Of a stretch of DNA of 64,000 bases, positions 17,982 through 47,098 are shown piece after piece; the stretch's first letter is position 1, and every line of letters starts with the position of its first letter. A program made the translations under genes and the position numbers. The notes beneath the pieces are model-generated. The model worked only from the letters and a program-made list of their open reading frames with translations, made no database searches and had not been told where the DNA came from. The stretch is from Parasutterella muris. Lineage in GTDB: Bacteria > Pseudomonadota > Gammaproteobacteria > Burkholderiales > Burkholderiaceae_F. Location: positions 1-64,000 of the forward strand of contig NZ_WSRP01000007.1 of the NCBI RefSeq assembly GCF_009767915.1, read 5' to 3'.

Positions 17982-18832
17982 AAATTCTGATTACCGGCGC
18001 CAAAGGACTTCTTGGACAAGCGCTTGCTCAAACTTTAAAAAACGAAAGACTGGTTTTAGCCGGCAGAGACGAGCCCGATGTCACAAACTTAGAGGACTTT
18101 AAAAAGTTCGCCTCTGAAGTTAAGCCGGATGTCATTATCCATTGTGCCGCCATGACCGATGTCGACGCCTGTGAAACGGATAAAAGGCAAGCATATCTCG
18201 TCAACGCCGTAGGATGCGGATACGCTGCAGCCGTCAGCCATCTCGTTAAAGCAAGACTCATCTCCGTCTCAACAGATTATGTCTTTGACGGAAAACAGTC
18301 CGAACCGTATGGAGAAGAAGATGCGGCAAACGGCGGAGATTCCGTATACGGACGTTCAAAATTTATCGGAGAGGAGTTCATTCGGGCGTTAAATCCCAAC
18401 CACGTTATTATTCGCACGGCGTGGCTGTACGGCCGCGGCGGAAAAAACTTTGTTGATTCCATGCTTTCACTTTCTCGGAAAGGAGTTCCTGAACTCAAAG
18501 TTGTTTCCGATCAGCGCGGCAATCCCACAAGCGCTGTCAGCGTTGCAGAAAAAATCCGGGAAATATTACAGCGGCCGGATATTAACGGAACTATTCATGT
18601 CACGAGCGAAGGTTCGGCAACTCGATATGAATTTGCTGAAGAAATTTTTAGACTTGCGAATATTTCGCAAAAGGTTGTTCCGTGCAGCTCTGAGCAGTTT
18701 CCGAGGCCGGCGCCCAGACCAAACAATTCTTGTCTGTCTAAGAACGCTCTTCGACGGTACGGTTTATCTCCTATGCCGGACTGGCGTTCGGAGCTCAAAG
18801 AGTACCTAACCTCCTTAAAGAAAGAGGATTAA
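17978..18832 (+). CDS. rmlD: dTDP-4-dehydrorhamnose reductase
   Basis: RmlD (RfbD) reduces the 4-keto sugar with NAD(P)H to dTDP-L-rhamnose. The 284-residue protein has the Rossmann start GAKGLLGQAL, the AAMTDVDACE segment, STDYVFDG, the catalytic YGRSKFIGE (Tyr-Lys) and RTAWLYG. It ends the wbaP-rmlBCD operon, and its stop codon overlaps the stop of the convergent sulfatase-fold gene. RmlA, which makes dTDP-glucose, is not in the window, so the pathway must be completed elsewhere. Confidence 0.97.
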   Translation: MKILITGAKGLLGQALAQTLKNERLVLAGRDEPDVTNLEDFKKFASEVKPDVIIHCAAMTDVDACETDKRQAYLVNAVGCGYAAAVSHLVKARLISVSTDYVFDGKQSEPYGEEDAANGGDSVYGRSKFIGEEFIRALNPNHVIIRTAWLYGRGGKNFVDSMLSLSRKGVPELKVVSDQRGNPTSAVSVAEKIREILQRPDINGTIHVTSEGSATRYEFAEEIFRLANISQKVVPCSSEQFPRPAPRPNNSCLSKNALRRYGLSPMPDWRSELKEYLTSLKKED

Positions 18833-20502
18833 TAAATTTCCTGATTCTTTTCGTGTTTTTTTAATTCTGTAATTTCCTTTGGTTCAGTCCACAAGTAATT
18901 CTCGTTAAGCCAAGATTTTTCTGCATACGGAAATTTACATTGTATTCCTGCGATATCGAGCAGCATATATGAAAGCCAGTCGCCCCTGAACGGCCTCTTT
19001 TCCAAATCCTCAGCGATCAGCTTCACATCCGATCGATTTGTCCAAAAGAGAAACGGTATTGTATATCCGCCTAACGTTGTTGAGGAATGCCCCATCAAAT
19101 CATCACGACGGCCTGTCTCTGCGCCATGGTCGGATAAGTAAACCCAGGAAACAGGCTGTCCGGCTGAGTGCTCTTTTGTAATTTCAAAAGTCTTCGCGAG
19201 GATCCTATCCTGATACAGCATTGCCAGATCATATTGACTTTTCAGAAGTTGATTTCTCAAGCTTTGACCGTTATCTTTCAGCATTTGTTTCACTTCATCA
19301 TTTTCGTCCCAATTAGGTTTGAGATCATGTGGATATCTCAGAGAAAAATGAGGATGAAGTCCGATTAAATGCACAATGATAAGTGTTTTTCCATGTGCTT
19401 TTTCCAGTGCTGACGCCAATTCCGGAAGCACTTTTTCATCCATAGAAGCGCTTGAGCGGCCGCCTTTTCTGTTCAAACTGACGTTCTCATCGGAAAAAGT
19501 CTGATATTCCGCATGTATCGCCGTATCTTCCTGATTACTGATCCATACAATATGAAATCCGGCTTTCTTAAAAAATGCCAGGACATGACCGTGTTCAGGC
19601 AAAGGCGCAGGATCGAACTCAAGCATCGTATTAAATGCTGCTACCGTACTGAATCGAGTGGAGTACGCGATTTTTGCTTTGAGGAAATTTCTCTCGTTTT
19701 TATCAATCTCCTCTAAACGAGGCGTTGTTTTTCTGGAGTAGCCGTACAAACTCATGTCTTCGCGGTTCATGCTTTCACCGATTACTAAGACAATCGTCTG
19801 CGGCTTATCTCCGGCTTGGGTAATGTATTTTTCTGCAGTGTGAAGGTACTTTTCGTTTTCCTTTTCAATATTTGTCCAGAAATCTTTTTGGATGCTTAAC
19901 TGGTGATACAAGTCCATATACACGCAGATTGGAAACCTGTTGCGCCATGCATCCTGGTAAAAGGAGAAGCAGAAAAGAAGCAGAAGAAGAAACGCGACTC
20001 CGTCTAATATTTTGGAAACGACAGGCTTTGCAGCAAGCAATTTAACCAAAGCGTATACATAAACAGCGTACGCAAAAATGGCAAGGCAAGTCCAAAGAAC
20101 AATATTCTGCAGACTCGTTTGAATGTAGTCTGATGCTTCTTTTTGATTCGTGTTTGAGATGGACTCCACGATGAACCTCGAAGTAAGACTTGCATCATAG
20201 TTCTCGTAGAAATATCCCTGCAATCCGCAATAAGAAAAAACAATAAACGACAGAACGACTGCAGCAATAAAACTGAGTATGCGATGGACCTTTCTTCTTA
20301 AAAGAGCAGTGAGAAAGACAAACGGCAGAAAAAAGACAGAGATCTGCAGGCCTCTGACTAAACCGAGACAGCAGGAGGAAAAAATCAAACCTATTGCAAC
20401 AGCGCCGAGTAAATAAAGCCCGATTAAGCCACCATTACGTAATTTGTCGGCATTAGAAATTTCAGTCCTCCAACTCTCGCACCTCAACTCTTGGAAGGGC
20501 AA
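18829..20502 (-). CDS. Phosphoethanolamine-transferase-like membrane enzyme (CptA/EptC-like)
   Basis: Proteins of this family move phosphoethanolamine from phosphatidylethanolamine to lipid A or LPS core sugars on the periplasmic face. The protein of up to 557 residues has about five N-terminal membrane helices (to about residue 190) and a sulfatase-fold periplasmic domain with the zinc-site motif VIGESMNREDMSLYGYSRKTTP, a likely Thr/Ser nucleophile region (RFSTVAAFNTM), a HLIGLHPHF segment and YLSDHGAETG. The first gene of a series of three related-fold enzymes on this strand. The start is uncertain: there is no in-frame ATG or GTG, only TTG at 20502 and 20487, while an ATT at 20460 has a perfect GGAGG 6 nt upstream. 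Confidence 0.85.
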   Translation of the reverse strand: MPFQELRCESWRTEISNADKLRNGGLIGLYLLGAVAIGLIFSSCCLGLVRGLQISVFFLPFVFLTALLRRKVHRILSFIAAVVLSFIVFSYCGLQGYFYENYDASLTSRFIVESISNTNQKEASDYIQTSLQNIVLWTCLAIFAYAVYVYALVKLLAAKPVVSKILDGVAFLLLLLFCFSFYQDAWRNRFPICVYMDLYHQLSIQKDFWTNIEKENEKYLHTAEKYITQAGDKPQTIVLVIGESMNREDMSLYGYSRKTTPRLEEIDKNERNFLKAKIAYSTRFSTVAAFNTMLEFDPAPLPEHGHVLAFFKKAGFHIVWISNQEDTAIHAEYQTFSDENVSLNRKGGRSSASMDEKVLPELASALEKAHGKTLIIVHLIGLHPHFSLRYPHDLKPNWDENDEVKQMLKDNGQSLRNQLLKSQYDLAMLYQDRILAKTFEITKEHSAGQPVSWVYLSDHGAETGRRDDLMGHSSTTLGGYTIPFLFWTNRSDVKLIAEDLEKRPFRGDWLSYMLLDIAGIQCKFPYAEKSWLNENYLWTEPKEITELKKHEKNQEIY

Positions 20503-20607
20503 TGATTAGTCTTGCTCAGATTGTATATGAATCCCTGCGAGACTATGCATCCAAACCATCTTTGTTAACAACTTATCCCCAAACAATTAGCTGTCAGAGA
20601 TTTAGTG

Positions 20608-20634
20608 TAAAAACCTCTCCCTTTGGGGTTTCTG
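20608..20634 (-). terminator. Possible terminator after the LtaS/OpgB-like gene
   Basis: On the minus strand AAACCCC pairs with GAGGTTT (one G-T pair) and TTTACA follows. It starts about 50 nt after the stop of the gene at 20684. Confidence 0.4.
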
Positions 20635-20683
20635 TCATACATATATCGCCGATGACAACCGACTCAAAATCATTGTCCATTTC

Positions 20684-22651
20684 TCATTTCGCTATTAAAC
20701 CTTCTCTTACGATCAGTTCACTAAGCGCTCTCTGAGCACGTGCAATCTCGCCCATCTCAATCTGTTCATTAGTGCAGGAGTCAGACCTTTGTAAAGTATC
20801 CCCATGCCATTTGTAGCAATCGTAAGAATTGCCGCCTTTTAAGGTCACGAGACCGGCATCTCCTATCGTAAATCCATTGTTATCCCAGGATATGAAGGAA
20901 ACTGCGCCATCAGGTATTTTCTCTTTTGCAAAAAGATTTCTTCCCTTACTGATCCCCGATTTTGCACCCGTAGCCGCAGAAAGAAGCGTTGGAATTATGT
21001 CTCTATGCGAAGCCCATTTATCCGTGTTCGCAAGCTGTCTTGTTCCCGCATTAGGAATCCAGAAGATAATCGGAACTCCATAAACATGGTGCCAGTTACC
21101 TTCTACAATATATTTCAAACGAGCATTATGATCACCCGTAGCTGCGACAACTGTATTTTTCAGCCAGCCGTTTTTGTCTAAATTCAAGACAAATTTTCCT
21201 AAGTTGTCAGCCGCATACTGATACGTCTGCAAAAGCAAATTGTTTTGTTCTTCAGAGGAATCTCTCTTAATGTAATTCGGCAAAACACTGAAATTGGTCC
21301 CCTGCACTGTTTCATTATCAGGAACTTTAAAAGGCGGGTGATTAGTGGTAGACAACATCATAATGAATACAGGCTGTTTGTCTTTTTCCGCTTTATCGAG
21401 AATATCCTCAGCATACTTGAACATCCACTTATCCCCAATTCCCCAAGGGCCAAGTTCGGCCTCAGGAAACTTATCGGATATAGCTGCACTTCCTATGACT
21501 TCATCGAATCCGAAATTTCTAAAGGTTTCGTTAATTTGTCGCCATGACTCTGGAGAACCTGTAAGAAATATTGTCTTATACCCCGCCTTCTTGAAGTCAA
21601 AAATCTGAGAAAAAGTTAATTTGTTTCTTCCGTAAATACCTTGTGAAATAGGCGTGATAGGTGTGTCAAAAATAAGTCCTTCTAAAGAAGGGAAGGTCCC
21701 GTTCATGATACTGACGGCCTTCTTAAATACCACTGCAGACGATAATGCTTCTTCCAAACTTCCTAGTGTATTGTTGCCTTTCGACGGATTATGAGAAAGA
21801 AAGATGTCTGCGCTCATCGATTCCATAACAGCAAAAACAACATTAGGCTTATCAGAAGGGGCGACTGGTTCTTTTGATGCGGGTGTCAGCTTCTTCTCCG
21901 CTTCCTCTCTTGAGGTATAACCAAACTTATGCAGAGCCTGATTTGGATCGCCTGCGATCTGTGTATTTTTCCAAGCTTTTGTTGCTTCATATAATGCCGC
22001 AGCTCCATTGGGTACGCAGGAATTAATCAGGCTTATTTTGCTTACAGAAAAGTCCTCTTGGCGTAAAGGAAACTTCGTCAAAGATCCCCGAACAATAACT
22101 GCTAATACAAGAGTAATACACAAGCCCAAAACAAACGCCCTGCCCCTACCCATTGGTGAACAGGTTTTCGGACTTTTAACCATGCGGCAGCACAAGAAAG
22201 GAATCGCCACGGAAACCAATATAACGATTAAATAACTAACTACAGGCCAATCTTCCCATATCGTTTCGATAATCGCCTTAGTATCATCTTGAAGCAATCC
22301 GTAAACCAGAGCGCTGATCGGAGTCTTATAGAATCCGTAAAAACCAAAATTCCCGGCGTCCAGAAGAATCAACAGGAAATATCCGATGCCGGCAAGTACG
22401 CATGAAATGATGTAGAAGGATCTGATCCAACAGGAAAGGATAAGTGCCAACCAAGCTGGGATTAGGGCTAAGCCAAGCCATTTAGCATCAACTCTTATTC
22501 CCGTCCAAACCGCAGGAAGGAAATCCATTAAAGTGATATTCGGATTACCTGAGGAATAAAAAATAAAGAAAACAAAACGGTACAAAGACAGGATTACAAG
22601 CCCTATCAAAAAAAATAAAAAAGCTTTTTTGACTTTAGTCTGCCAAACCAT
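20684..22651 (-). CDS. LTA-synthase family membrane sulfatase-fold enzyme (OpgB/LtaS-like)
   Basis: This family transfers phosphoglycerol from phosphatidylglycerol to a glycan or lipid; in Gram-negatives the known member OpgB modifies periplasmic glucans. The 655-residue protein has five predicted membrane helices (to about residue 190), a linker, and a periplasmic domain opening with PNVVFAVMESMSADIF (metal-binding Glu). The nucleophile region is IMNGTFPSLEGLI (Thr), followed by GPWGIGDKWMF, the MLSTTNHPPF motif, and AATGDHNAR (metal-binding Asp-His). These are LtaS-type motifs and differ from the EptA type. The true substrate is not known. The genes on both sides have the same fold but belong to other subfamilies. 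Confidence 0.85.
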   Translation of the reverse strand: MVWQTKVKKAFLFFLIGLVILSLYRFVFFIFYSSGNPNITLMDFLPAVWTGIRVDAKWLGLALIPAWLALILSCWIRSFYIISCVLAGIGYFLLILLDAGNFGFYGFYKTPISALVYGLLQDDTKAIIETIWEDWPVVSYLIVILVSVAIPFLCCRMVKSPKTCSPMGRGRAFVLGLCITLVLAVIVRGSLTKFPLRQEDFSVSKISLINSCVPNGAAALYEATKAWKNTQIAGDPNQALHKFGYTSREEAEKKLTPASKEPVAPSDKPNVVFAVMESMSADIFLSHNPSKGNNTLGSLEEALSSAVVFKKAVSIMNGTFPSLEGLIFDTPITPISQGIYGRNKLTFSQIFDFKKAGYKTIFLTGSPESWRQINETFRNFGFDEVIGSAAISDKFPEAELGPWGIGDKWMFKYAEDILDKAEKDKQPVFIMMLSTTNHPPFKVPDNETVQGTNFSVLPNYIKRDSSEEQNNLLLQTYQYAADNLGKFVLNLDKNGWLKNTVVAATGDHNARLKYIVEGNWHHVYGVPIIFWIPNAGTRQLANTDKWASHRDIIPTLLSAATGAKSGISKGRNLFAKEKIPDGAVSFISWDNNGFTIGDAGLVTLKGGNSYDCYKWHGDTLQRSDSCTNEQIEMGEIARAQRALSELIVREGLIAK

Positions 22652-22954
22652 ATATTTCTCAGTATTAAAAGTTCAATAGAGGGCGCCCCGCGCTCAGCCT
22701 CTACAACATTGTTCAATAACTTTTCTAAAATCTTCCGGTTGTATCAGGGTCTTTAAATAAGCGCATTGGCTGCCATGCAGTCTCTCGAGATTTTAGGAGC
22801 CCCCTCGCATATTCAATAACAACGTCCAATAAAGGACACAGCATCATAGATCAACAACCTGCCTTTAAACTAGTTCACTATTTCCGTCGCTTCTTTTAAG
22901 GCGCAACTCTCTGTCTAATTCCAACATAGAACTTCACTTCAATGTCGGTGTCTG
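22652..22954. other. Gap between two sulfatase-fold genes
   Basis: This 303-nt A/T-rich region should carry the promoter of the gene at 20684. No reading frame, RNA gene or strong hairpin was seen. Confidence 0.5.
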
Positions 22955-24805
22955 CTACTTGGAATAGCGCCTTAGCTCCTCTAACACTTCCGGCATGTAA
23001 TTCGGTATATCTTTGTCGGGAGCGGGTCTGAAGGTTTTGTCTAAGTGTTCCAGCATTCCGGCTCGATTAATAAGAACAATCCGATCGGGTTCAACAAATC
23101 CGTCAAGGCTGTAACCGCTAACGTATACCCAATCTCTTCTGTTCTCAGGCTCCCAAATCGACTGTCCTACAGAGTAGTCTTTTGTTGGATTTGTACAGCC
23201 CAAAACCTCCGGAAGAATTGTCGGAACCAAATCAAGATGTGATGTTAGGTAATTTACCTCTCTGGCTTCTTTCCCCGGCCAATGAATGACTAAAGGCACC
23301 TTGACCTGAGGATCCGTAAAGTTTCCACCATGGCTCCAATAATTCAGTTTGTTATCGTTAAATTCGTCTCCGTGATCCGAACTAATAACGACAATAGTAT
23401 TGTCCATTAGTTTCTTTTCTTCAAGGAACTTCAAGACATTTTCAATCTGATCGTCCGCATAGCGAACCGCGTTCTTATATCGAGCTAAATACGGTGCGGG
23501 ATCAAAAGAATTAGACAGTTCTAAATGATTGACGTTCTTCCAATAGGGCTTAAACACCTCATACTTTGGCTCTCTTGGAAAATCATAAGCGTGCACTGAA
23601 TCTAAGAAGATAAAGCCGAAAAAAGGTTCTCCGTTCTTGATTGATTGCTGCCACTTTTCAAAATCCTCTACGGCAAACTTATCTGATTCGACTGAATTGT
23701 CTCCTCTCGGATCGATGCGCAAACCCTTAATAGAGGAAAAGATGGTTTTATGGAATTCCGGCATATCCAACGGAGCCCCTGCAAATATTCCGATGTTGTA
23801 ATGAGCATCCTGCAGAGCGGTGATAAGGATTCCGGGAGTTGACCCGGTCAGTGCTTTCTTCCAATAGCTTCCGGGCAGTCCGGTAAATAGAGAGAAAATA
23901 CCATGCCGTGTATTGTTGCCGTTGGAATAATGATTCGTGAAAGTAATGTTCTTCTTTGAGAACGCATAGGTATTAGGCATAACATCCGCCGTCAGCATGT
24001 CATACCGAAGCGTGTCGACAAAAAGAAATAATATGTTGTAGCGTTTGCCTCCATGGCATGTAAGAGGTTCCAGCGGATATTTCATATTCGAAGAACCGTC
24101 TGCTTGAATTTTCTGGGAATTTGCATTAATAGCATCTCTATTAACAAGGCCGAGCTTTATAAAAACATTGTTCATTCTCAGAGGCCGAGCTAAGGGAATT
24201 TTCTCGGGAACTGTCGTAACTCGAGTATCAAAATGGACGAACCCCCAGGCGTAATAAACATTTGCCCAAATAAAGCCGAGTAAACAAACCAGGGAAATAA
24301 TTCCAACTATTTTGACCCCTGACACTCTCCTCGCAGCCTTAAAAAACAATGCAATGACTGTTGAAATAACTACAAGATAACCAATAATTTCAACGATCAT
24401 CGGAAGAGAAAAGCTCACAATTCTTCCCCCTCCAAGGAAGGTCATTTGAAGCATCGCCAGATTCAGATGGGTCCGGTACATCGGATAAACAAATGTATCT
24501 GCGGCAAGGTATACGATAACTAAAAAATCGAATAGTGCTGCCGCCATCGGAATAAGATAATTCAAACGAAAGAGCTTCAGAAGTAAAAATAACAATCCGA
24601 CGATAACAAGGGAATAGACAAAATAAGCTCCACCGGTAAAAGCCGCAAAGAGCAGTTTTTGAAACCAACTCCATGCAGCGCAAAGACCTAAAGCGTTGAT
24701 CGAAACAGCCCCTAAGGCGATAGAAATAATCGCAATAAAAATAGAATTCAGCAAAAGTAGGAGAAAGGGCCTACTACTTCCGGAGAGATGTTTTGTGGAT
24801 TTCAT
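22955..24805 (-). CDS. yejM: YejM/PbgA-like inner-membrane protein
   Basis: YejM (PbgA, LapC) is an essential inner-membrane protein in enterobacteria that senses LPS in the periplasm and controls LpxC breakdown through LapB; some members keep a phosphatase-like site. The 616-residue protein has five N-terminal membrane helices (to about residue 195), a linker, and a sulfatase-fold periplasmic domain with FLFVDTLRYDML, NTYAFSKKNITFTNHYS, GNNTRHGIFSLFTGLPGSYW, LDSVHAYDFP, SSDHGDEF and HGGNFTDPQVKVPL. The GNNTR...FTGLPG...YW pattern is the YejM signature. The metal-site residues appear intact, so it may be an active hydrolase. It lies divergent from ugd. Confidence 0.82.
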   Translation of the reverse strand: MKSTKHLSGSSRPFLLLLLNSIFIAIISIALGAVSINALGLCAAWSWFQKLLFAAFTGGAYFVYSLVIVGLLFLLLKLFRLNYLIPMAAALFDFLVIVYLAADTFVYPMYRTHLNLAMLQMTFLGGGRIVSFSLPMIVEIIGYLVVISTVIALFFKAARRVSGVKIVGIISLVCLLGFIWANVYYAWGFVHFDTRVTTVPEKIPLARPLRMNNVFIKLGLVNRDAINANSQKIQADGSSNMKYPLEPLTCHGGKRYNILFLFVDTLRYDMLTADVMPNTYAFSKKNITFTNHYSNGNNTRHGIFSLFTGLPGSYWKKALTGSTPGILITALQDAHYNIGIFAGAPLDMPEFHKTIFSSIKGLRIDPRGDNSVESDKFAVEDFEKWQQSIKNGEPFFGFIFLDSVHAYDFPREPKYEVFKPYWKNVNHLELSNSFDPAPYLARYKNAVRYADDQIENVLKFLEEKKLMDNTIVVISSDHGDEFNDNKLNYWSHGGNFTDPQVKVPLVIHWPGKEAREVNYLTSHLDLVPTILPEVLGCTNPTKDYSVGQSIWEPENRRDWVYVSGYSLDGFVEPDRIVLINRAGMLEHLDKTFRPAPDKDIPNYMPEVLEELRRYSK

Positions 24806-36638: not shown

Positions 36639-39440
36639 TTACGCCTCTCTTGCCTCTGTCAGCTCATAGCCTTCCTCCTCTATCGCTTGCTGAAATTCTG
36701 ATTCCGTAATCGGCTTAGAGGATTCAACCTGTGCAGATTTATTCTCCAAAGACACCTCGCAATGAACTACCCCGTCAAGTCCTGATAGTTTCTTAGTTAC
36801 CGACTTAACGCAATGACAGCACATCATGCCTTCGATCCCAAGTAAATAATTAAAACCCTTTGTCTGCCCAGGCGTTGAAATACATTCAATCGACTCTAAT
36901 TTGTAGCCGTCTTCCTCGATCAATGATTTTAATTTTGCCTCGTCGATCGGGGCTGAGCTTTGTACATCTGCAGTCCCCTTCTCTAAATCGACTTTGCAGT
37001 CGATAACTCCGGGCAATCCGGTAATCATGCCGGTTACTGCTTTTACACAATGCTGGCACATCATGCCGGAGATATAAATCTTGTATTCATACTTAGGCGT
37101 TTCTGCAGCGGTTTTCTCGATGGCTAAGTTCATAAGTTTAGGTTCCATTCTCTGATTTTCATTATCCATTGCTCCCGAAAGTACAGGACGCCAGCGACGC
37201 AGTCTCAGTGCATTAGAAACCACACTCACCGAGCTCATGCTCATGGCGGCTGCTGCAATCATCGGGTTAAGCACCCATCCAAAAACTGTATAAAAGACAC
37301 CTGCGGCAACCGGAATGCCGATGATGTTGTAAATAAATGCCCAGAATAGATTTTCACGAATGTTGTTCATACAGGAGTGTGAGAGCGCTCCGGCATTGAC
37401 AACATCAGAAAGGCGGCTCTTCATGATCACGATATCAGCCGCTTCAATCGCTACATCTGTACCGGCGCCGATTGCCGCTCCAACATCCGCTCTTGCAAGA
37501 GACGGCGCATCGTTAATTCCGTCCCCAACCATCATGACCTTCTTTCCGGCTTCCTGAAGTTCACGGACAAGAGCCTCTTTTTCTGCGGGTTTAACTTCTG
37601 CACGAATATTTTTGATACCGACTTGTGCGGCCACAGCTTGCGCTGTCTTAATATTGTCCCCTGTCAGCATCCAAACTTCTTTGTCCTGCTTGAGCATCGC
37701 TTGAACTGCGTCTTTGCTGTCAGCTCGCACAGGATCAGCAGCCGCGATCAAACCGGAAAGTTTTCCGTCCAGCAGAACATAAAGCGGAGTTTTACCTTGA
37801 TCCGCTAATTGATCCGCTAATTCACGAACTTGTTCAGGCAACTCACCGACAACAACGCTCTTATTGCCGATTTTCACATTTTTCCCAATTACCTGAGCAG
37901 ACACATTACCCAGATTTTGCGTGAAGTTTGAAGCCTCCCGAAGCGGCACTTCTAAGGACTTTGCTCCATCAACGACAGCTGCCGCAAGCGGATGCTCCGA
38001 CTTATTTTCCACAGAGGCGACGAGACTCAAGAGTTCCTTGGGGGGAAGACTGAAACTGACAACATCTGTTAGTGCAGGTTTTCCGCTGGTGACCGTTCCT
38101 GTCTTGTCAAGCACAATAACATTGACTTTTTCGGTTGTTTCAATAGCTTCTGCCGAGCGGAAAAGGATTCCGTTCTGTGCGCCTCGACCGCTTCCAACCA
38201 TGATTGCTGTCGGAGTCGCCAAACCCAATGCGCATGGACAAGAGATCACAAGAACTGAAACGCCGATCATCAGCGCGAATTCCCACGAATATCCAAGCAT
38301 CAGCCAAACCAGGGAAGCTGCAATTGCGATCGAGATCACCGTTGGAACAAAGATGCCGCTGATTTTATCAGCGAGTCTTGCAACCGGCGGTTTTGTTGAT
38401 GTTGCTTCATCAACAAGTTTAATGATCTGAGCCAGAGCAGTATCTCCGCCTACTCGAGTGGCCTTCATTTTGATATAACCGCTCGTCAGAAGCGTAGAAG
38501 CCGACATTTGAGAACCAACCGTTTTTTCTACCGGAACACTCTCTCCCGTCAGGGAAGATTCATCTACTGTCCCGCTTCCGTCCTCTACAACACCGTCAAC
38601 CGGAACCCTTGAACCGGTTTTTAAAAGAACCAAATCTCCTACAGCGATTTGCTCCAAAGGCACAACTTCCTGCTTACCGTCTCTTTCGACCAACGCATTT
38701 TCCGGAACCAAGGCCATCAATTTGGAGATCGCATCCGTCGTCTTGTGCTTTGCTCTCGACTCAAAATATTTGCCCAATGTGATAAGTGCCAATATCATTG
38801 CGGCTGAGTCAAAGTACAGATTATGTGCATAATGCGCAAGCTGTTTCTCATTTCCTTGGGCAAGTGCCCAAAGCATCATGTAAAGGGCAAACAGTCCGAA
38901 TAAGACAGAGGCGGCTGAGCCGATCGCCACCAGAGAATCCATATTTGGCGCCCGATGCCAAAGGGACTTAAAACCGTTTCGGAAATACTTAAAGTTCACA
39001 AAAATGACCGGAAGCGTAAGCAAAAACTGGGTCAGAGCGTTTATCGGTGCATTCTTTGTTCCGCTGAGAATCTCAGGCAAAGGCATCCCGAGCATTGGTC
39101 CCATTGCCAAAATCATAAGAATTCCGGCAAAAATCAAGGATACCCAAAGCCTAAACTTCATTTCTTCGGAAGCCTTTTTAGCCTCAAGCGCAGGATCCGC
39201 TGTTTGAACCGAACCTCCTTTATCTTCACTCCTTTCCGACGCGCCATAGCCGGCGTCCGTTACCGCTTTGACGATCTCCCCGACATTTGTCTTTGCGTCG
39301 TCAAACTCGACGGTCATACTGTTTTTCAGGAGATTGACATTCACATTGTCAACCCCGGGTATGGAAGAGACCGCCTTCTCAACTCTGGCTGAGCAGGCCG
39401 AGCAGCTCATCCCAGTCACATCAAAATTCTTTTTCTGCAT
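36639..39440 (-). CDS. copA: Copper-exporting P-type ATPase with three metal-binding domains
   Basis: CopA pumps Cu(I) from the cytoplasm at the cost of ATP. The 933 residues contain one N-terminal HMA domain (GMSCSACSARV, C13 and C16), eight membrane helices with the copper-transport CPC motif (VISCPCALGLATPT), the phosphorylation site DKTGTVTSG, and the hinge GDGINDAPSLARADVG. Unusually, two more HMA domains follow the last helix (GMMCQHCVKAV and GMMCCHCVKSV, about residues 800-930). AAGGA precedes the ATG, and a promoter-like pair is at 39465-39492. It is divergent from an HxlR regulator, which may control it. Confidence 0.95.
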   Translation of the reverse strand: MQKKNFDVTGMSCSACSARVEKAVSSIPGVDNVNVNLLKNSMTVEFDDAKTNVGEIVKAVTDAGYGASERSEDKGGSVQTADPALEAKKASEEMKFRLWVSLIFAGILMILAMGPMLGMPLPEILSGTKNAPINALTQFLLTLPVIFVNFKYFRNGFKSLWHRAPNMDSLVAIGSAASVLFGLFALYMMLWALAQGNEKQLAHYAHNLYFDSAAMILALITLGKYFESRAKHKTTDAISKLMALVPENALVERDGKQEVVPLEQIAVGDLVLLKTGSRVPVDGVVEDGSGTVDESSLTGESVPVEKTVGSQMSASTLLTSGYIKMKATRVGGDTALAQIIKLVDEATSTKPPVARLADKISGIFVPTVISIAIAASLVWLMLGYSWEFALMIGVSVLVISCPCALGLATPTAIMVGSGRGAQNGILFRSAEAIETTEKVNVIVLDKTGTVTSGKPALTDVVSFSLPPKELLSLVASVENKSEHPLAAAVVDGAKSLEVPLREASNFTQNLGNVSAQVIGKNVKIGNKSVVVGELPEQVRELADQLADQGKTPLYVLLDGKLSGLIAAADPVRADSKDAVQAMLKQDKEVWMLTGDNIKTAQAVAAQVGIKNIRAEVKPAEKEALVRELQEAGKKVMMVGDGINDAPSLARADVGAAIGAGTDVAIEAADIVIMKSRLSDVVNAGALSHSCMNNIRENLFWAFIYNIIGIPVAAGVFYTVFGWVLNPMIAAAAMSMSSVSVVSNALRLRRWRPVLSGAMDNENQRMEPKLMNLAIEKTAAETPKYEYKIYISGMMCQHCVKAVTGMITGLPGVIDCKVDLEKGTADVQSSAPIDEAKLKSLIEEDGYKLESIECISTPGQTKGFNYLLGIEGMMCCHCVKSVTKKLSGLDGVVHCEVSLENKSAQVESSKPITESEFQQAIEEEGYELTEAREA

Positions 39441-40002: not shown

Positions 40003-41124
40003 ATGAAACTGCCATCATTCATGGATCGCACCGATTTTGTTGTGCGATTCTTATTTGGATCCTTCATCGCAATTGGATGCGTGTTGGTCGTTTGGCCTTT
40101 CGCTACGGCAATTTCCGTTGCGGCAGTTATCGCAATGGTCTCGTGGCCCTTATTCAAACGAATTCGCTCAGCTGTAGGCGGACGTAATCTGTTGGCAACC
40201 TGCATTATCGTGGGCTTGCTCGCTGTTTTGATCGTACTTCCGATCGCGGCTCTTTCTCTTGTTTCCGCGCAGGAAATTCCGACACTCATTCGTTATATCC
40301 GTGATTGGATTGCCTCCGGTTTTAACATCCCCGAGCAAATCAAAGAGATACCGCTGATTGGCAATTGGATCTTTGATCAGGCTCATGATTTGCTTGGCAG
40401 TAAAGAGGACCTTACTGCGCTAGCTCAAAAGCTTTTTGACCCGGTTAGCCGTGCAGCGCTTGCGGGCGCGGTTATGTTGGGAGACGGCCTCTTCCAGCTC
40501 TTCTTAATGCTGTTTGTAATTTTCTTCTTCTACCGCGACGGTGAATATTTGTCCCAGAAGTGCCTGGCGCTTCTGACACGCATGAGCGGAAACATTGCTG
40601 TAGAAGTTCGAAATATTATCGTCAACACTACCAGAAGTGTTGTGTTCGGCATTGTCGGCAGCGCAGCAGGCCAAGGGATTGTTGCGTTAATCGGCTTTTG
40701 GATTGCCGGAGTTCCCGGTGCATTGACTCTGGGCATTGCTGTGTTCGTGCTATCTGCCGTACCGATCGGACCTCCTCTTGTTTGGGGACCGGCTGCCTGC
40801 TGGCTTTACTACAAAGGAGAGGTCGGAATGGCGATCTTTCTGGTGCTCTGGGGCTCTCTTGCCGTATCGAGCGTTGATAATTTCCTGAAGCCGCTTCTCA
40901 TTTCAAAGGGCGCTTCGCTGCCGCTTTCTTTGATCTATTTAGGCGTTTTCGGCGGCATCATTGCCTTCGGCTTCATGGGCATTATCCTCGGTCCGGTTGT
41001 GATCGCAGTGGGAATCGCCATGAGTAAAACCTGGCTGTCAATCACTGCTACAGTTGATTCCTCTAATCACCCAACTAAAGCGACCAAGGCCGTCTTGGAA
41101 AAGCTGTCACGAAACATCAATTGA
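40003..41124 (+). CDS. AI-2E family transporter (PerM/YdiK-like)
   Basis: The family includes TqsA, reported to export autoinducer-2, and Na+/H+ antiporters; most members have no known substrate. The 373-residue protein has about eight membrane helices. It has the family pattern: two N-terminal helices in close pair, a soluble segment (about 85-150) with IPEQIKEIPLIGNWI, then FVIFFFYRDGE, a VPIGPPLVWGPAACWLY segment and PLLISKGASLPLSLIYLGVFGG (in part: KGASLPLSLIYLG). It stands alone, with no clear ribosome-binding site before the ATG. Confidence 0.88.
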   Translation: MKLPSFMDRTDFVVRFLFGSFIAIGCVLVVWPFATAISVAAVIAMVSWPLFKRIRSAVGGRNLLATCIIVGLLAVLIVLPIAALSLVSAQEIPTLIRYIRDWIASGFNIPEQIKEIPLIGNWIFDQAHDLLGSKEDLTALAQKLFDPVSRAALAGAVMLGDGLFQLFLMLFVIFFFYRDGEYLSQKCLALLTRMSGNIAVEVRNIIVNTTRSVVFGIVGSAAGQGIVALIGFWIAGVPGALTLGIAVFVLSAVPIGPPLVWGPAACWLYYKGEVGMAIFLVLWGSLAVSSVDNFLKPLLISKGASLPLSLIYLGVFGGIIAFGFMGIILGPVVIAVGIAMSKTWLSITATVDSSNHPTKATKAVLEKLSRNIN

Positions 41125-41173
41125 AAATGATGTTGTTGTGACGCCCAAAAAAGAAGATTCGTAAACCGGAGAG

Positions 41174-41192
41174 CGGGCAGTTAGACTGCCCG
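41174..41192. terminator. Perfect 8-bp hairpin between two convergent genes
   Basis: CGGGCAGT pairs with ACTGCCCG around a 3-nt loop. Neither side has a clear T-run. It lies between the AI-2E transporter stop and the O-antigen ligase stop, and may act for either or both. Confidence 0.5.
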
Positions 41193-41235
41193 TCAGAACT
41201 CAACAAATGCGTTGCGAAAAAACATTTAAAAGTTC

Positions 41236-42474
41236 TTAGGCAGGCCGCGCCTCATTATTTTTCATATCTTTAATACGCGAGAGCACAATAAGCGAAGCGA
41301 GAGCTACCCAGTAAAATTTCACAACAGCAGAATTACCAAAATTAAATTCAGTTAAACCTTGAATAAAGAAAGACATTGATACTGAGACAATGAGCATCCC
41401 ATAAAGATTTTTATTCCTCCACATGCTCTTAAAGCCAAACCAAAAGATATATCCAAATAGGAGAACAAAAGAAATCAGCCCAATAGCTCCACTTTGTCCA
41501 AGCATCTGAAAAATATTGCTGTGCGCATGCTTTTGTCTTCTCTCTTTCGCTTCAGGAAGAATGTATTCTTTTTGATATTTATCCGCATATTGGCCAACTC
41601 CGACCCCTAAGACCGGATGATCTAAGAACATGTTAGTGGCGCTCTTCCACATCAGCAAACGCTCAGAATTGGATTGATAGGCCATATCTGTGATTGTATC
41701 TACTCGTCTTTGAACCTGATCAAGCGAACAAAATAAAGATGCACAGATCGCGGCGATCACAATAAATGCCATGGTTTTTTTGACGGATTTGAGAGAAAAC
41801 CACATCCCAACCAAAAAGAGCGCTGGTATTACTCCAAGCCATGCTCCCCTTGTCGCATTTAGCATCAGACCTACTGCAAGGATAGAAAATAGAACTAAGT
41901 TGAATATTAGGAATGGTAATTTTTGAGCTCTATTCAGAATTAGAGATAAACACAACGGAAGAGACACACAAAGAAAACCCGCCAAGGTCATCATGTGGCC
42001 AAATAGCCCTTTAAGTCTCACTGCTCCGGCCGGCGCAATAATATACCCTCCGATCACATCAAGCGCACAAGAGATAATACTTATTATTAGAAAAATAAAT
42101 ACTAATTTAGGTTTATCAAAGAACAGAAGAATGAAAAAAAATGGAAAGGTTCTAAACACGTAGGTATTAAAAAATACTTTAGCGCCTTCTATAGGCTCAC
42201 CACTAAACAGAGCAGAAAGCAGCATTATTGCCCAGAAAAAGCCAAATATCAGAAACCAAGTTCGATTATTTTTAATTTTTAAATAAATATCATTAATCTT
42301 TTTTTCTTTTATTCTTTTTGCCAAAACAAGAATCGCAAAAAAAATGGAAATTCCTAAGAAAATATTCGCAACAGCAATTGATAAACACTGAAAAAAAATA
42401 AAAAGGGAAAAAGCAAACAAGAAAATGATTTCCAGCCTGCTGAAATTTTGAATTTCTTTTTTAATTCCGAACAT
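41236..42474 (-). CDS. O-antigen ligase/polymerase family membrane protein
   Basis: The Wzy/WaaL-type family joins O-antigen to LPS core or polymerises lipid-linked repeat units on the periplasmic face. The 412-residue protein is nearly all membrane, with about 11-12 helices, and a larger periplasmic loop with the conserved HPVLGVGVGQYADKY and KHAHSNIFQMLGQSGAIG (His pair). These are the Wzy_C/O-antigen ligase signatures. Ligase or polymerase cannot be decided from sequence alone. It is A/T-rich compared with nearby housekeeping genes, as often seen for surface-antigen genes. It is followed on the same strand upstream by the phosphodiesterase-like and transferase genes. Confidence 0.85.
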   Translation of the reverse strand: MFGIKKEIQNFSRLEIIFLFAFSLFIFFQCLSIAVANIFLGISIFFAILVLAKRIKEKKINDIYLKIKNNRTWFLIFGFFWAIMLLSALFSGEPIEGAKVFFNTYVFRTFPFFFILLFFDKPKLVFIFLIISIISCALDVIGGYIIAPAGAVRLKGLFGHMMTLAGFLCVSLPLCLSLILNRAQKLPFLIFNLVLFSILAVGLMLNATRGAWLGVIPALFLVGMWFSLKSVKKTMAFIVIAAICASLFCSLDQVQRRVDTITDMAYQSNSERLLMWKSATNMFLDHPVLGVGVGQYADKYQKEYILPEAKERRQKHAHSNIFQMLGQSGAIGLISFVLLFGYIFWFGFKSMWRNKNLYGMLIVSVSMSFFIQGLTEFNFGNSAVVKFYWVALASLIVLSRIKDMKNNEARPA

Positions 42475-42808
42475 GTCTTTTGTCCACAGTAACAGCGGAA
42501 GCTGCTGTCCTTGTAAATCTCAGGATATCCATTCCGAGAGAAGATACGGAGGATATTATCAGAGAATACAAGTCTGCACTTGAACAGTGCGAGTCTCAAC
42601 AGAAGAATAATCATGAAAAACAACTTAATGTCGCTTTTCCAATACGACATTCACGCGTTACTCCTCATTAGACTCAATTTCTCGAGTAGAAATACGGCAG
42701 AAAAGGATCGATGGGCATCTTACAACTTATGAAAAATACCTCCGACACTTATTGGGGAGAAAACAACCTAGATGCTATTTGGATCCGGCACCTTGATGCT
42801 TCTTTTAT
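42475..42808. other. Gap with possible remnant of a plus-strand gene
   Basis: In one plus-strand frame, a protein-like stretch from 42480 to 42671 is followed by two stop codons close together, and an open stretch from 42711 to 42818 in the same frame. It may be the remains of a decayed gene, or chance; I recognise no family. The promoter of the O-antigen ligase gene should also be here. Confidence 0.25.
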
Positions 42809-43549
42809 TCACCTGTGAAAATGTCCTCTTTCCTTAACGAGAATAACTTCAACATCCTTATTTTTCACAGCATCCTGGTACATTTTTTTGTTGTTCACCT
42901 TGTACCAAGGTTCCCAGTAATACCAAACTAAATACTTCTTATTCTTCAGAAGGTCATTCTTTTTAACAAGCTCATACATATGACCGTCCATAGAAAGGTA
43001 TTTGCAGTTTGATTTATATGCTTCATAAATTTGTGTTTTTACATCTTCCTGGCGCTTTCCTTCACCGATCAGATAAAAAGCTGTTTTCCATCCTTTTGAA
43101 GCAAAGAAATTAAGACATGGAACGCAATGGCTCTCCACAATGCATTTATTCTTATCAATACCAGCCTCCTTGACAATTTTTGAAAGGTCTTCCTCTGCGT
43201 TAAAGCTATTTGCTTCAGTTAAATTCTTAACATCAAACCAAGCTCCCTTTGATGGCTTAAGAAACTTCAGCGTTTCAGATAAAGGAACTTGACCATCTCC
43301 TGCATCATGAGAGTTATTGAAAATTCTGTCTTTCTCGTTGTAGAGCGCATCCATTTCGAAACGGCTGTATTTCTCCGAAAACTCTTTCATTTTTAAGGGA
43401 GAGTTCACACGATGCAGCCAAAATTTTTCAGGAATATCCTGAAATTTGCCTACCAGCCATAAATAATAAGAATTGCGCAACGCAACAAAAGCAAGAGCAA
43501 GAACTAGCAGAATCGCTATGACTCCTAAGGTAATTTTCCCTTTCCTCAT
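42809..43549 (-). CDS. Membrane-anchored PLC/GDPD-superfamily-like protein, unknown role
   Basis: The 246-residue protein has one N-terminal membrane helix (about residues 6-25) and a domain that should lie in the periplasm. It recalls TIM-barrel phosphodiesterases of the PLC/GDPD superfamily: WLHRVNSPLKMKEFSEKYSRFEMDALYNEK (in part: HRVNSPLKMKEF and FEMDALY), NSHDAGDGQVPLSETLKFL, WFDVKNLTEAN and CIVESHCV. The H-R-N, E-x-D and S-H-D elements sit where the catalytic metal site lies in that fold. Assignment is by pattern only. Its ATG overlaps the stop of the phosphoethanolamine-transferase gene by ATGA, so the two are translationally coupled. Confidence 0.55.
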   Translation of the reverse strand: MRKGKITLGVIAILLVLALAFVALRNSYYLWLVGKFQDIPEKFWLHRVNSPLKMKEFSEKYSRFEMDALYNEKDRIFNNSHDAGDGQVPLSETLKFLKPSKGAWFDVKNLTEANSFNAEEDLSKIVKEAGIDKNKCIVESHCVPCLNFFASKGWKTAFYLIGEGKRQEDVKTQIYEAYKSNCKYLSMDGHMYELVKKNDLLKNKKYLVWYYWEPWYKVNNKKMYQDAVKNKDVEVILVKERGHFHR

Positions 43550-45414
43550 TCTTTTCTCTCCTCAAAAGATTTCCTGCCGTGCAGTGTCTTCAATTCATTC
43601 ATAGTGCATCCGTAGCTTTCGGAGGAAATATCATTGTTGTCATTTTTGAATTTGCTTTCAATGCCTAGAACGCTCGACATCGTGTCAAACAGCATGTCAT
43701 TAGTGAACGGCTTATCTGAATTCTTTTTCAGATTCCTAACAACAGACGAGTGATCCTTCGCATATTTGTCAGAGAAGACCATCCAGAAAGGAATTTCCGT
43801 TAAATCCCAGCCAAATTGACTGCTGTCATGAGATACTCCCCTATCAACGCCTTCTGAGTGATCTGCTACATATGTCAAAGACATAAAGTTAGGTTGTTTT
43901 TTAGCCCATTCATAAATATCTTTTACTACAGCATCGTTATAAAGCATACTGTTGTCGTACTTATCAATTGAAGTTCGACCAAATTTCTTAAAGGAGCCCG
44001 GGTATCTTTCTTCATAAACTGTATGGTTGTCCATTAGATGAAGAACAATCAAAATACGGTCGCTATTGCTGTGCAGATTTTTGAGACTGTTGACCAATTC
44101 TCCGTCGTAAAAGGTAGTACCTGTATCCGTGCCAAAGTTCGTATTAATGAACATCTGATGATCCGCCGTCGAGGCTATAAGCGTGACAGGCGTATCCCAA
44201 GCCGACAGCTTGACTTGATTACTTATCCAATAGGTTTCGTATCCTGACGCATTTGCCAATTCAATTAACGAAGGACAATCCTGAAGAAGATTGTCATCGT
44301 ATTGAGACTTAGAGGTCAGAGCATACGTTAAAGCCGGAACGGTATGGGTGTGATTGGAATATGCGTTAGAAAAGATAACCGCATTCGGATCATTCTTCAT
44401 TTTCGATAGCCACGGTGTCGTCTCTCGCTTATACCCGTAAGCGGACATGTGATTTCTGTTCTGAGACTCTCCTATCACCAGGATGTATAAACCTTTATAT
44501 CCGTCTTTCTCTATAGCGAGTGTTCCAAATTTGTGAATCCTCTCAAGAGAGGCATCTTTAAAGTCTTTATATAGTTTCAAGCCTTCAGCTAAACCTATAA
44601 AGGGTTTAGTGATTAGATTGTGACTAGTTTTACTAATCAAAATGGAAGAAATAACAATCGCAAGCAGCGAGATAAATGCAGTACCAAAGAGCCTAATCCT
44701 TAGTTTCTTTGCATCAGTATACGACCTTGTTTCCTTATTTGTAGTCCCATGATCTGTCTGCTGTGTCACTACTGATTTAGCAAGAAGAATAACTAAACAG
44801 AAAATGAAAAGAGCGGCAACGACAAAAAGCAGCGACGAACCGACAGTCATATTCTCTTTTAAATACGCAAAAGCCTCATTGTTGTTTGTCTGGGCGATTG
44901 CAAGCAAAGTATCTGCAGATAATACGGAACCGGAGACTAAGTAATAAGAGAAAAAAGACAAGCTGAGAAAGGCCGGAATAGCCATGCATAAGAAGACAAG
45001 AAACGCACTCAATACTCGGGCAGCATTGTCGTTACCGATCTTTGAAAAGCAACCCCCGGCAACATAAGGTATTAGCGCGAGAACAACTGAAATCCCGGCG
45101 AGCCAGTAAATAGCTGTTGTTAGCGGTCGAGCAGATATCGAGCCGGCAACAAAAATTTGAATGATGACCGGTATCAAACCTAAGAGCAGGGACAGATAGA
45201 AGAGCAGCTTCAGGCGATAACGCCGGAGTAAAGCGGACTCAATAGACGTTATGAGACCACTGAAGCAAAAGAGGGAAATCAGCGCAAGGATAAAAAATTT
45301 AAACAGTCCAATACCAAGGGAGGACTGAGACACTGTCTCTAAACCAAAGATAGGAATAAAAAGAACTAAGAGCGCCCACAGTACACTTGAAAGAATCGTT
45401 TTTAGTACAGACAT
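43546..45414 (-). CDS. Phosphoethanolamine-transferase-like membrane enzyme
   Basis: The 622-residue protein has about six to seven predicted N-terminal membrane segments (to about residue 275) and a sulfatase-fold periplasmic domain. That domain opens with LYILVIGESQNRNHMSAYGYKRETTPWL, here seen as VIGESQNRNHMSAYGY and RETTPWL. Then come the likely Thr nucleophile region (SNHTHTVPALTYALT), a LHLMDNHTVYEERYP segment and YVADHSEGVD. This is the phosphoethanolamine-transferase (EptA/CptA) pattern, the second in the window. Unlike the first, it is coupled by ATGA to a phosphodiesterase-like gene, and both lie beside an O-antigen ligase gene, so it probably decorates LPS. Confidence 0.87.
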   Translation of the reverse strand: MSVLKTILSSVLWALLVLFIPIFGLETVSQSSLGIGLFKFFILALISLFCFSGLITSIESALLRRYRLKLLFYLSLLLGLIPVIIQIFVAGSISARPLTTAIYWLAGISVVLALIPYVAGGCFSKIGNDNAARVLSAFLVFLCMAIPAFLSLSFFSYYLVSGSVLSADTLLAIAQTNNNEAFAYLKENMTVGSSLLFVVAALFIFCLVILLAKSVVTQQTDHGTTNKETRSYTDAKKLRIRLFGTAFISLLAIVISSILISKTSHNLITKPFIGLAEGLKLYKDFKDASLERIHKFGTLAIEKDGYKGLYILVIGESQNRNHMSAYGYKRETTPWLSKMKNDPNAVIFSNAYSNHTHTVPALTYALTSKSQYDDNLLQDCPSLIELANASGYETYWISNQVKLSAWDTPVTLIASTADHQMFINTNFGTDTGTTFYDGELVNSLKNLHSNSDRILIVLHLMDNHTVYEERYPGSFKKFGRTSIDKYDNSMLYNDAVVKDIYEWAKKQPNFMSLTYVADHSEGVDRGVSHDSSQFGWDLTEIPFWMVFSDKYAKDHSSVVRNLKKNSDKPFTNDMLFDTMSSVLGIESKFKNDNNDISSESYGCTMNELKTLHGRKSFEERKE

Positions 45415-45634
45415 AAATTTTTATTTAGTATTAGTAGGTAAGCCTATTTTTAGGCAAACGCATTAGACGTCATAATTATAAATACGCGATTCAAATTGAA
45501 CCGTTTTTGATTCCCCTCTTTTTACTGGAGAAATCTGCTGAGAAAAAATCAAGAACGTCATTGCTGTTTCTGGCCATTGCATGTGTTATTGCGTCTATAC
45601 TTCCTCTATCTACATTCCCCGGATCGATAAAACT

Positions 45635-47098
45635 ATGTCAGCCAAAGATCAGACAATCATCGGACTTTGCCAAGTCGGTTCCCCTGCCCCCTTTGTTAAA
45701 GCCCTGAAAGAAAAAATCGCGAATACCTACTTACCCGACGGTACAAAAGCCATCCTCAAAACCGTCGATTTTGAGTGGCAGAGCCCAAATAGCGATGCTT
45801 CTAAACTCGTACGCGACGGAGATTTCAAGATCCGCGCCTTCGAAGAAGTCAGCCGACTGAGAGCCGCTGGTGCTAAGGTCGCAGCTGTGACAAACTGCCG
45901 CACTCTCGGTTTTAAAAATGAGCTTCAGGAAGAAATCACAACGCCGATTACTGACTTCCCCACTGCATGCGCGCATGCCGTCTCTGAGAACCCGAATTTA
46001 AAACTCGGCTATTTGGGAAGCACTTCCGCTCCGAAGGCAGCTGCGATCAAAGAAGCGGTTGAAAAGGTCTTCAAGCCGCAGTGGGTTGATCTTGACAAGT
46101 CTTTCGACCCGATCGTTGAAGAAATCCAGGAACTGCTCCATAAGGGCAAATCTTCCGATGAAAAGGAAGCGCTCGATAAACTCGCCATGCTCTGCTCCGA
46201 ATTAGTCAGAGGCGGCGCAGAAAAAATCCTTCCGACCTGCGGCCTTCAGGCACTTCTCTCGGAAGCTTTAAACGCCAAAGGCTATCCGGTTATCGATGTC
46301 GTCAAAGCCTTCGCTGATTATCTCTGCTTCACCGAGTGGCACAACCTTCCGAAACCCTTCAAGATCGGTATTGTGGGCGGCCTCGGACCGGCTGCGACTG
46401 TTGACCTGTACGATAAAATTACGCGCTTTACACTGGCTAAAACCGATCAAAAGCATATTAAAGTCGCGGTTGAGCAGAACCCTCAGGTTCCTGACCGCAC
46501 GAAATACCTGCTCGAAGGCGGTGTTGACCCGACACTTGCCTTATACCAGGCCTGTAAACGACTGGAAAACGATGACGTCGACGCCATCGTAATCGCCTGC
46601 AACACAGCCCACGCTTACTTCGAAACCATCCTTCCTCATTTGTCCGTCCCGCTCATCAATATGCAGCAGGTCACACTCGAAGAGATTATCGAGAAGTACG
46701 GTAAAAACGCAGTGGTCGGCCTTATGGCCACCGACGGCACCATCCAAACCGGAATTTATTCTAATAAGGCTAAGAGCATGAATCTTTCCATGGTCACGCC
46801 GGATAAGGAATATCAGGCGCTTGTCATGGAAGCGATTTACGGTGAGCTCGGCGCGAAAGCCGGTTACACCGAAGGACACTGCAAAGAGGTTCTTCTGAAG
46901 GCAGCCCGCCACCTCGCTAAGGAAAAAGGTGCGACTGTTCTCGTACTCGGCTGTACGGAACTCCCTCTGATTCTTGATGAGACAGACAATCTCGATCTTG
47001 GCGACTGCAGCGCGGCTGTTATTGACCCGACATCTTCTCTCTCCCGAAGAGTTGTGAAGGTTGCCGAAGAGATCATTAAGATCCGAGGACGCCGCTAG
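45635..47098 (+). CDS. Two-domain aspartate/glutamate racemase family protein
   Basis: The protein (487 residues from the ATG at 45635; an upstream ATG at 45581 is in frame but its segment looks non-coding) has two racemase-like halves. The C-terminal half (about 245-487) is a full Asp/Glu racemase domain with GIVGGLGPAATVDLYDKI, the first catalytic Cys in IVIACNTAHAYF, and the second in VLGCTELPLIL. The N-terminal half has a related fold pattern with candidate Cys residues in AVTNCRTLGF and ILPTCGLQALL. D-amino-acid synthesis or use is the likely role. It is followed by a terminator and a dehydrogenase gene. Confidence 0.8.
   Translation: MSAKDQTIIGLCQVGSPAPFVKALKEKIANTYLPDGTKAILKTVDFEWQSPNSDASKLVRDGDFKIRAFEEVSRLRAAGAKVAAVTNCRTLGFKNELQEEITTPITDFPTACAHAVSENPNLKLGYLGSTSAPKAAAIKEAVEKVFKPQWVDLDKSFDPIVEEIQELLHKGKSSDEKEALDKLAMLCSELVRGGAEKILPTCGLQALLSEALNAKGYPVIDVVKAFADYLCFTEWHNLPKPFKIGIVGGLGPAATVDLYDKITRFTLAKTDQKHIKVAVEQNPQVPDRTKYLLEGGVDPTLALYQACKRLENDDVDAIVIACNTAHAYFETILPHLSVPLINMQQVTLEEIIEKYGKNAVVGLMATDGTIQTGIYSNKAKSMNLSMVTPDKEYQALVMEAIYGELGAKAGYTEGHCKEVLLKAARHLAKEKGATVLVLGCTELPLILDETDNLDLGDCSAAVIDPTSSLSRRVVKVAEEIIKIRGRR

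Follow-up and report, generated by a model that had tools for sequence, protein, structure and literature searches.

What might a phosphodiesterase-like protein do when its gene overlaps that of a phosphoethanolamine (PEtN) transferase? We asked this of a locus in the window, by which we mean the whole stretch of Parasutterella muris DNA that was analysed (64,000 nucleotides). The locus and its surroundings comprise the following features.

40003-41124: AI-2E-family transporter gene
41125..45580: block flanked by the AI-2E-family transporter and racemase genes, delimited by synteny
41236..42474, (-) strand: O-antigen ligase-like gene (Pfam Wzy_C, E 2.2e-25)
42809..43549, (-) strand: P0001 gene, ORF of 246 aa
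43546..43549, (-) strand: ATGA overlap of the P0002 stop and the P0001 start, from the sequence
43546..45414, (-) strand: P0002 gene, ORF of 622 aa
43558..43563, (-) strand: GAGGAG, a ribosome-binding-like run 8 nt 5' of the P0001 ATG, from reading the sequence
45581-47098, (+) strand: racemase gene, 505 aa

The two ORFs and the ATGA that they share lie exactly where the earlier note had placed them. The GAGGAG run sits within the 3' end of the P0002 gene, and the overlap itself suggests translational coupling from P0002 to P0001. An O-antigen ligase gene had also been reported beside the pair; the Wzy_C match bears this out, with the gene 334 bp downstream of P0001 on the same strand, where it may provide the acceptor context for a surface glycan.

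P0002 is a member of the sulfatase/alkaline-phosphatase superfamily (Pfam Sulfatase, 2.2e-39 at residues 310-585). Hydrophobic segments up to residue 265 are consistent with N-terminal membrane helices, followed by a C-terminal periplasmic sulfatase-superfamily domain at about residues 310-585. The best NCBIfam model was CptA (1.9e-51), and the best solved relative, by alignment with PDB sequences, was E. coli EptC (5zzu, 6.3e-32); we take EptC and CptA to be one protein, the core-LPS PEtN transferase. GES, HTVPAL and ADHSEG in P0002 line up with their EptC counterparts, and E316, T358, D518 and H519 fall on the conserved E, T, D and H of EptC, which presumably serve in catalysis (metal, nucleophile). 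P0002 scored 175 bits against a CptA cut-off of 404, far under it, and 104 bits against a cut-off of 500 for the P_eth_NH2_trans model, and it is therefore a relative rather than an assigned CptA. By its sequence, P0002 is an EptC/CptA-like PEtN transferase, in agreement with the identity first suggested for it; its acceptor may differ from that of EptC. We know of no P0001-like partner of E. coli EptC.

P0001, used alone as a query, retrieved nothing significant from Pfam, NCBIfam or PDB sequences; its relationships emerged only with an alignment profile and by comparing folds. Hydropathy indicated one N-terminal membrane helix at about residues 6-24, and an AlphaFold2 model (pLDDT 91.7, with alignment A4 of 25 sequences as input) shows a long N-terminal helix, then strands and helices that succeed one another as in a barrel. 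GDPDs made up most of the significant Foldseek matches of this model; the top four (E 2.4e-7 to 1.1e-6) were chains of two archaeal GDPDs, from Pyrococcus furiosus and Thermococcus kodakarensis. VIA-align matched the model to Thermus GDPD 1vd6 with a Z of 17.4 and 3.1 A over 180 residues. Foldseek TM-scores to these GDPDs were moderate, about 0.55-0.60, which suggests that P0001 is a diverged member of the GDPD type. When 22 family sequences were compared, profile against profile, with four ordinary GDPDs and L097, the probability was 97% and E 3.2e-11, a value that holds for that single comparison. The HR, ExD and H motifs of GDPDs align with H46-R47, E65-x-D67 and H81 of P0001, but the nine-residue loop after HR is missing, and a conserved asparagine comes directly instead (HRxN). 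A search of viral predicted structures with the P0001 fold also returned mainly GDPD-like proteins at the top. The earlier note had proposed a membrane-anchored protein with phosphodiesterase-like elements, and both parts of that proposal stand: the protein has one predicted N-terminal helix, and its modelled TIM barrel is of the GDPD type, with GDPDs as its best solved matches.

P0001 shares the barrel and the three motifs with the GDPD family proper (PF03009) but differs from it in the lost loop, the membrane anchor and the transferase partner, and, having no Pfam match, falls outside it. Among seven members of the P0001 family scored against PF03009, L097 exceeded the cut-off and L069 and L098 matched below it. 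The commonest Pfam match in the family was Menorin (PF10223), found in 10 of 28 members at E <=0.1 (best 4e-5). P0001 itself has no PF10223 match, and the one member scored against the curated cut-off of 25, L023, reached 17.8 bits. Menorin/FAM151 is an animal family; its authors describe PLC-like phosphodiesterase-superfamily proteins with a conserved active site, whose substrates and function they call unknown (PMC6965129). We place P0001 in the GDPD superfamily, near animal menorin/FAM151 and outside that family.

Homologues came from several sources. The first sequence search found one directly 3' of a PEtN-transferase gene on a small (9.6-kb) Acinetobacter plasmid and, on inspection of the ORFs, another directly after such a gene in Vibrio. 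A pattern scan of 84,980 species genomes contributed 22 loci. Surveys gave matches in 6 of 369 genomes of the organism's class (the window's own included, and one of the six weak), in 16 of 295 Bacteroidia genomes (11 strong) and, within the family to which one Vibrio genome belongs, in 7 of 121 (5 strong). With P0001 as query, across 60 relatives and the organism's own genome the only match was in the latter, and phage records and viral contigs gave none. All loci were re-scored with a profile built from alignment A3, and removal of duplicates and weak matches left 41 distinct loci from Proteobacteria and Bacteroidota. We set aside L013, L089, L094 and L095, which are weak, incomplete or interrupted by stops; L007, the same Vibrio pair as L026, and L099, beside L030, each with equal lengths and scores, were not counted, and L012 and L014 are represented in the count by L070 and L071, which span the same sites over a greater length. 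The five weak Bacteroidia matches were also rejected: Pfam identifies L052 and L054 as ordinary GDPDs, alignment with those two does the same for L053 and L055, and L056 looks unrelated. Three of the 41 (L069, L097 and L098) form a separate branch closer to ordinary GDPDs.

Across these loci, E65, H81, W104, D106 and K108 (P0001 numbering) occur in 41 of 41, D67 and E139 in 40, N49 in 38 and H46 in 37. At the aligned GDPD site, the residues for metal binding and acid-base chemistry are nearly invariant, and most family members look like enzymes. H46 is absent in L065, L068, L069 and L098, the first catalytic histidine being alanine in L069 and L098, and L068 has also lost D67; because of the four losses of H46, a few members may not be enzymes. 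Such losses would suit a P0001 that serves the transferase as a subunit for binding or specificity, without catalysis of its own. We regard that role as distinctly unlikely, since full conservation of E65, H81, D106 and K108, and of E139 in all loci but one, exceeds what binding would need.

In 35 of the 41 loci the P0001-family gene lies adjacent, on the same strand, to a gene for an alkaline-phosphatase-superfamily transferase or is fused with it, a proportion that may overstate pairing among distant relatives because the loci were gathered by similarity from three seeds, all of them paired. In L065 the transferase neighbour is divergently oriented, four loci (L016, L017, L070 and L071) have no transferase nearby, and L067 stops at a contig edge. 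Six loci carry a fusion of the transferase with a P0001-like domain (L035, L062, L063, L064, L068 and L096). The 29 unfused same-strand pairs overlap in 19 cases, abut in 2 and are spaced by 3-50 nt in 8, counts that use the first possible start codon and so overstate overlap; the P0001-like gene comes second in 24 of them. Beyond the partner, the closest flanking ORFs (62, drawn from 33 of the loci) are almost all different. Recurrence among them is limited to two pairs of ORFs that resemble each other and a further pair from the sulfatase superfamily; the sulfatase profile matches three of the 62, in every case an additional copy next to a pair. Because the partners recur while their nearest flanks hardly do, the pairing exceeds chance, and the pair appears self-contained. 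Conservation of the pair in other genomes, on which the earlier note's reading depended, thus extends, as adjacency or fusion, to two phyla. One of the fused genes, in L068 (4752-8513, (-) strand; the same fusion as L010), encodes 1253 aa, in which a pair of similar repeats at the N-terminus precedes the transferase; the next gene is a nucleotidyltransferase-like sugar gene.

The window's own copy of the pair has the look of an insertion. In two genus-mates (L106 and L108) the AI-2E-family transporter and racemase genes are directly adjacent, and a P0001 match is absent from both genomes. GC is 0.364 in the ligase gene, 0.372 in P0001 and 0.41 in P0002, against 0.476 for the window, and a 49% identical ligase is encoded elsewhere in one genus-mate, among genes resembling the window's other polysaccharide-region genes. 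Ligase, P0001 and P0002 (41236-45414) may be read as a small acquired surface-glycan cassette. An inserted, low-GC block and a pair on a 9.6-kb Acinetobacter plasmid are also what one would see if the two were merely chance neighbours, or unrelated surface genes travelling together. Yet the same two partners occur at 35 of 41 loci in two phyla with flanks that otherwise hardly recur, and the six fusions contradict this account, which we hold to be very improbable.

Other genes of the window are worth recording. The protein encoded at 45581-47098 (+) matches Asp/Glu racemase (cysteate racemase CuyB) over residues 262-494 only, its first 260 residues having no such match. The gene at 36639-39440 (-) encodes a CopA-like P-type ATPase of 933 aa. 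It has three matches to heavy-metal-associated domains, and one of these, a CopP match at residues 867-927, is in an unexpected place near the C-terminus. The stretch at 18829-24805 (-), of low GC (0.42), encodes three sulfatase-superfamily proteins in a row: one CptA/EptA-like, one LtaS/phosphoglycerol-transferase-like and one YejM/LapC-like. All four sulfatase-superfamily matches of the genome fall in this 64-kb window.

A tree of the 36 partner transferases and four other sulfatase-superfamily proteins put 30 of the partners on the PEtN side and 6 (L015, L019, L065, L066, L069 and L098) on the LtaS-like/phosphoglycerol side. Best NCBIfam matches for 10 of the 36 agree with the tree (five CptA and five LtaS/phosphoglycerol-transferase, all below curated cut-offs). 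P0002 falls in a clade of six with support 97/95, whose remaining five rows are all fusions. The sixth fusion, L062, is elsewhere in the partner tree, so there has been more than one event of fusion or splitting. In the tree of the P0001 family, P0001 is unresolved and does not group with the fused domains; co-inheritance of the window's pair is not supported. PEtN-type and LtaS/phosphoglycerol-type transferases probably draw on different lipid donors, and that a P0001-like protein partners both kinds suggests that its target is what their products have in common, a head group phosphodiester-linked to an acceptor. In L069 and L098, which are related to each other, an LtaS/phosphoglycerol-transferase-like protein accompanies a GDPD-like protein, with a further sulfatase-superfamily gene nearby. 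The partnership is recurrent and uncharacterised and its parts are of known kinds; what is new is the standing partnership itself, together with the fusions and the recruitment of partners from two branches of transferases.

What was computed is the gene structure, the family of P0002, the predicted fold of P0001, the conserved catalytic residues and the recurrent pairing and fusion. With these in hand, we propose that P0002 would transfer PEtN from a phospholipid to a surface glycan, which we infer to be of the core or O-antigen type, while P0001, tethered at the same membrane face via its one helix, would act as a metal-dependent phosphodiesterase of the GDPD type on the phosphodiester newly made. 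Its presumed enzymatic activity on the transferase product could run in either direction: the decoration would be removed again, or the diester would be cut so that the phosphate remains on the sugar. Because their relatives are adjacent or fused in distant bacteria, P0001 and P0002 are probably directed at one and the same bond, although adjacency would be explained no less well by common regulation or a complex than by a common substrate. We put the chance that P0001 edits the phosphodiester made by its transferase, in a periplasmic "add and edit" module, at about even.

The substrate could instead lie on the donor side, P0001 being a lysophospholipase-D-like or glycerophosphodiester-cleaving enzyme that clears lysolipids or glycerophosphoethanolamine where phospholipid is consumed. 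It is membrane-tethered, and its fold matches also include the lysophospholipase D enzymes 8ghi, 8ghh, 7ym0 and 9yd8. Such a chore, however, needs no fusion to the transferase, of which there are six, and the by-product of such transferases is diacylglycerol, which has no phosphodiester. On balance we think a donor-side role unlikely.

The earlier note knew of no described pair of this type, and here it needs correction. In Shewanella vesiculosa HM13, HM3344, a PEtN transferase annotated 'OpgE', adjoins HM3345, annotated 'GDPD', within the P49 vesicle-cargo cluster (PMC6971210, Table 1). This pair resembles ours in joining a PEtN-transferase gene to a GDPD/PLC-like gene, both products being predicted inner-membrane proteins, beside Wzx/polysaccharide genes, and by its annotation HM3345 is a candidate homologue of P0001; unlike ours, it lies in a T2SS-like/P49 cluster (PMC6971210), and no such cluster was seen in the window. 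Alongside their tabulation, in the part of the article covered here, we found no experiment on HM3344 or HM3345 (PMC6971210). The open-licence papers searched yielded no further mention of either gene, no described transferase/phosphodiesterase pair beyond the Shewanella table, and no account of a bacterial enzyme for editing or removing PEtN or phosphoglycerol decorations; such absence is weak evidence, because open-licence papers only were covered.

PLC-fold enzymes can form cyclic phosphates, and P0001 might be a second transferase that passes the phosphate group, via a cyclic or metal-bound intermediate, to a second sugar or a protein. The place of the Shewanella pair in a cluster for export of vesicle-borne protein and polysaccharide, as far as the part of the article covered here describes it (PMC6971210), would suit such attachment of a protein to a glycolipid. 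But no second acceptor site is evident in the sequence and no third partner gene recurs among the 62 flanking ORFs of 33 loci, and a second transfer step seems to us distinctly unlikely.

The editing that we favour has a bolder form. P0001 might "uncover" the installed diester by removing the ethanolamine (or glycerol), and the sugar would keep a phosphate or cyclic phosphate; the two enzymes would together achieve a two-step extracytoplasmic phosphorylation of a glycan without ATP. The lysosomal mannose-6-phosphate uncovering enzyme follows the same logic. We offer this form tentatively and think it unlikely to be right.

Decoration of surface glycans with PEtN and phosphoglycerol is widely studied, and the P0001 family supplies a testable candidate for its editor, as well as a bacterial entry point to the question of the menorin/FAM151 substrate. 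If the uncovering form were true, menorin/FAM151 proteins, as distant relatives, might act on head-group phosphodiesters of glycans, for example the ethanolamine-phosphate on GPI.
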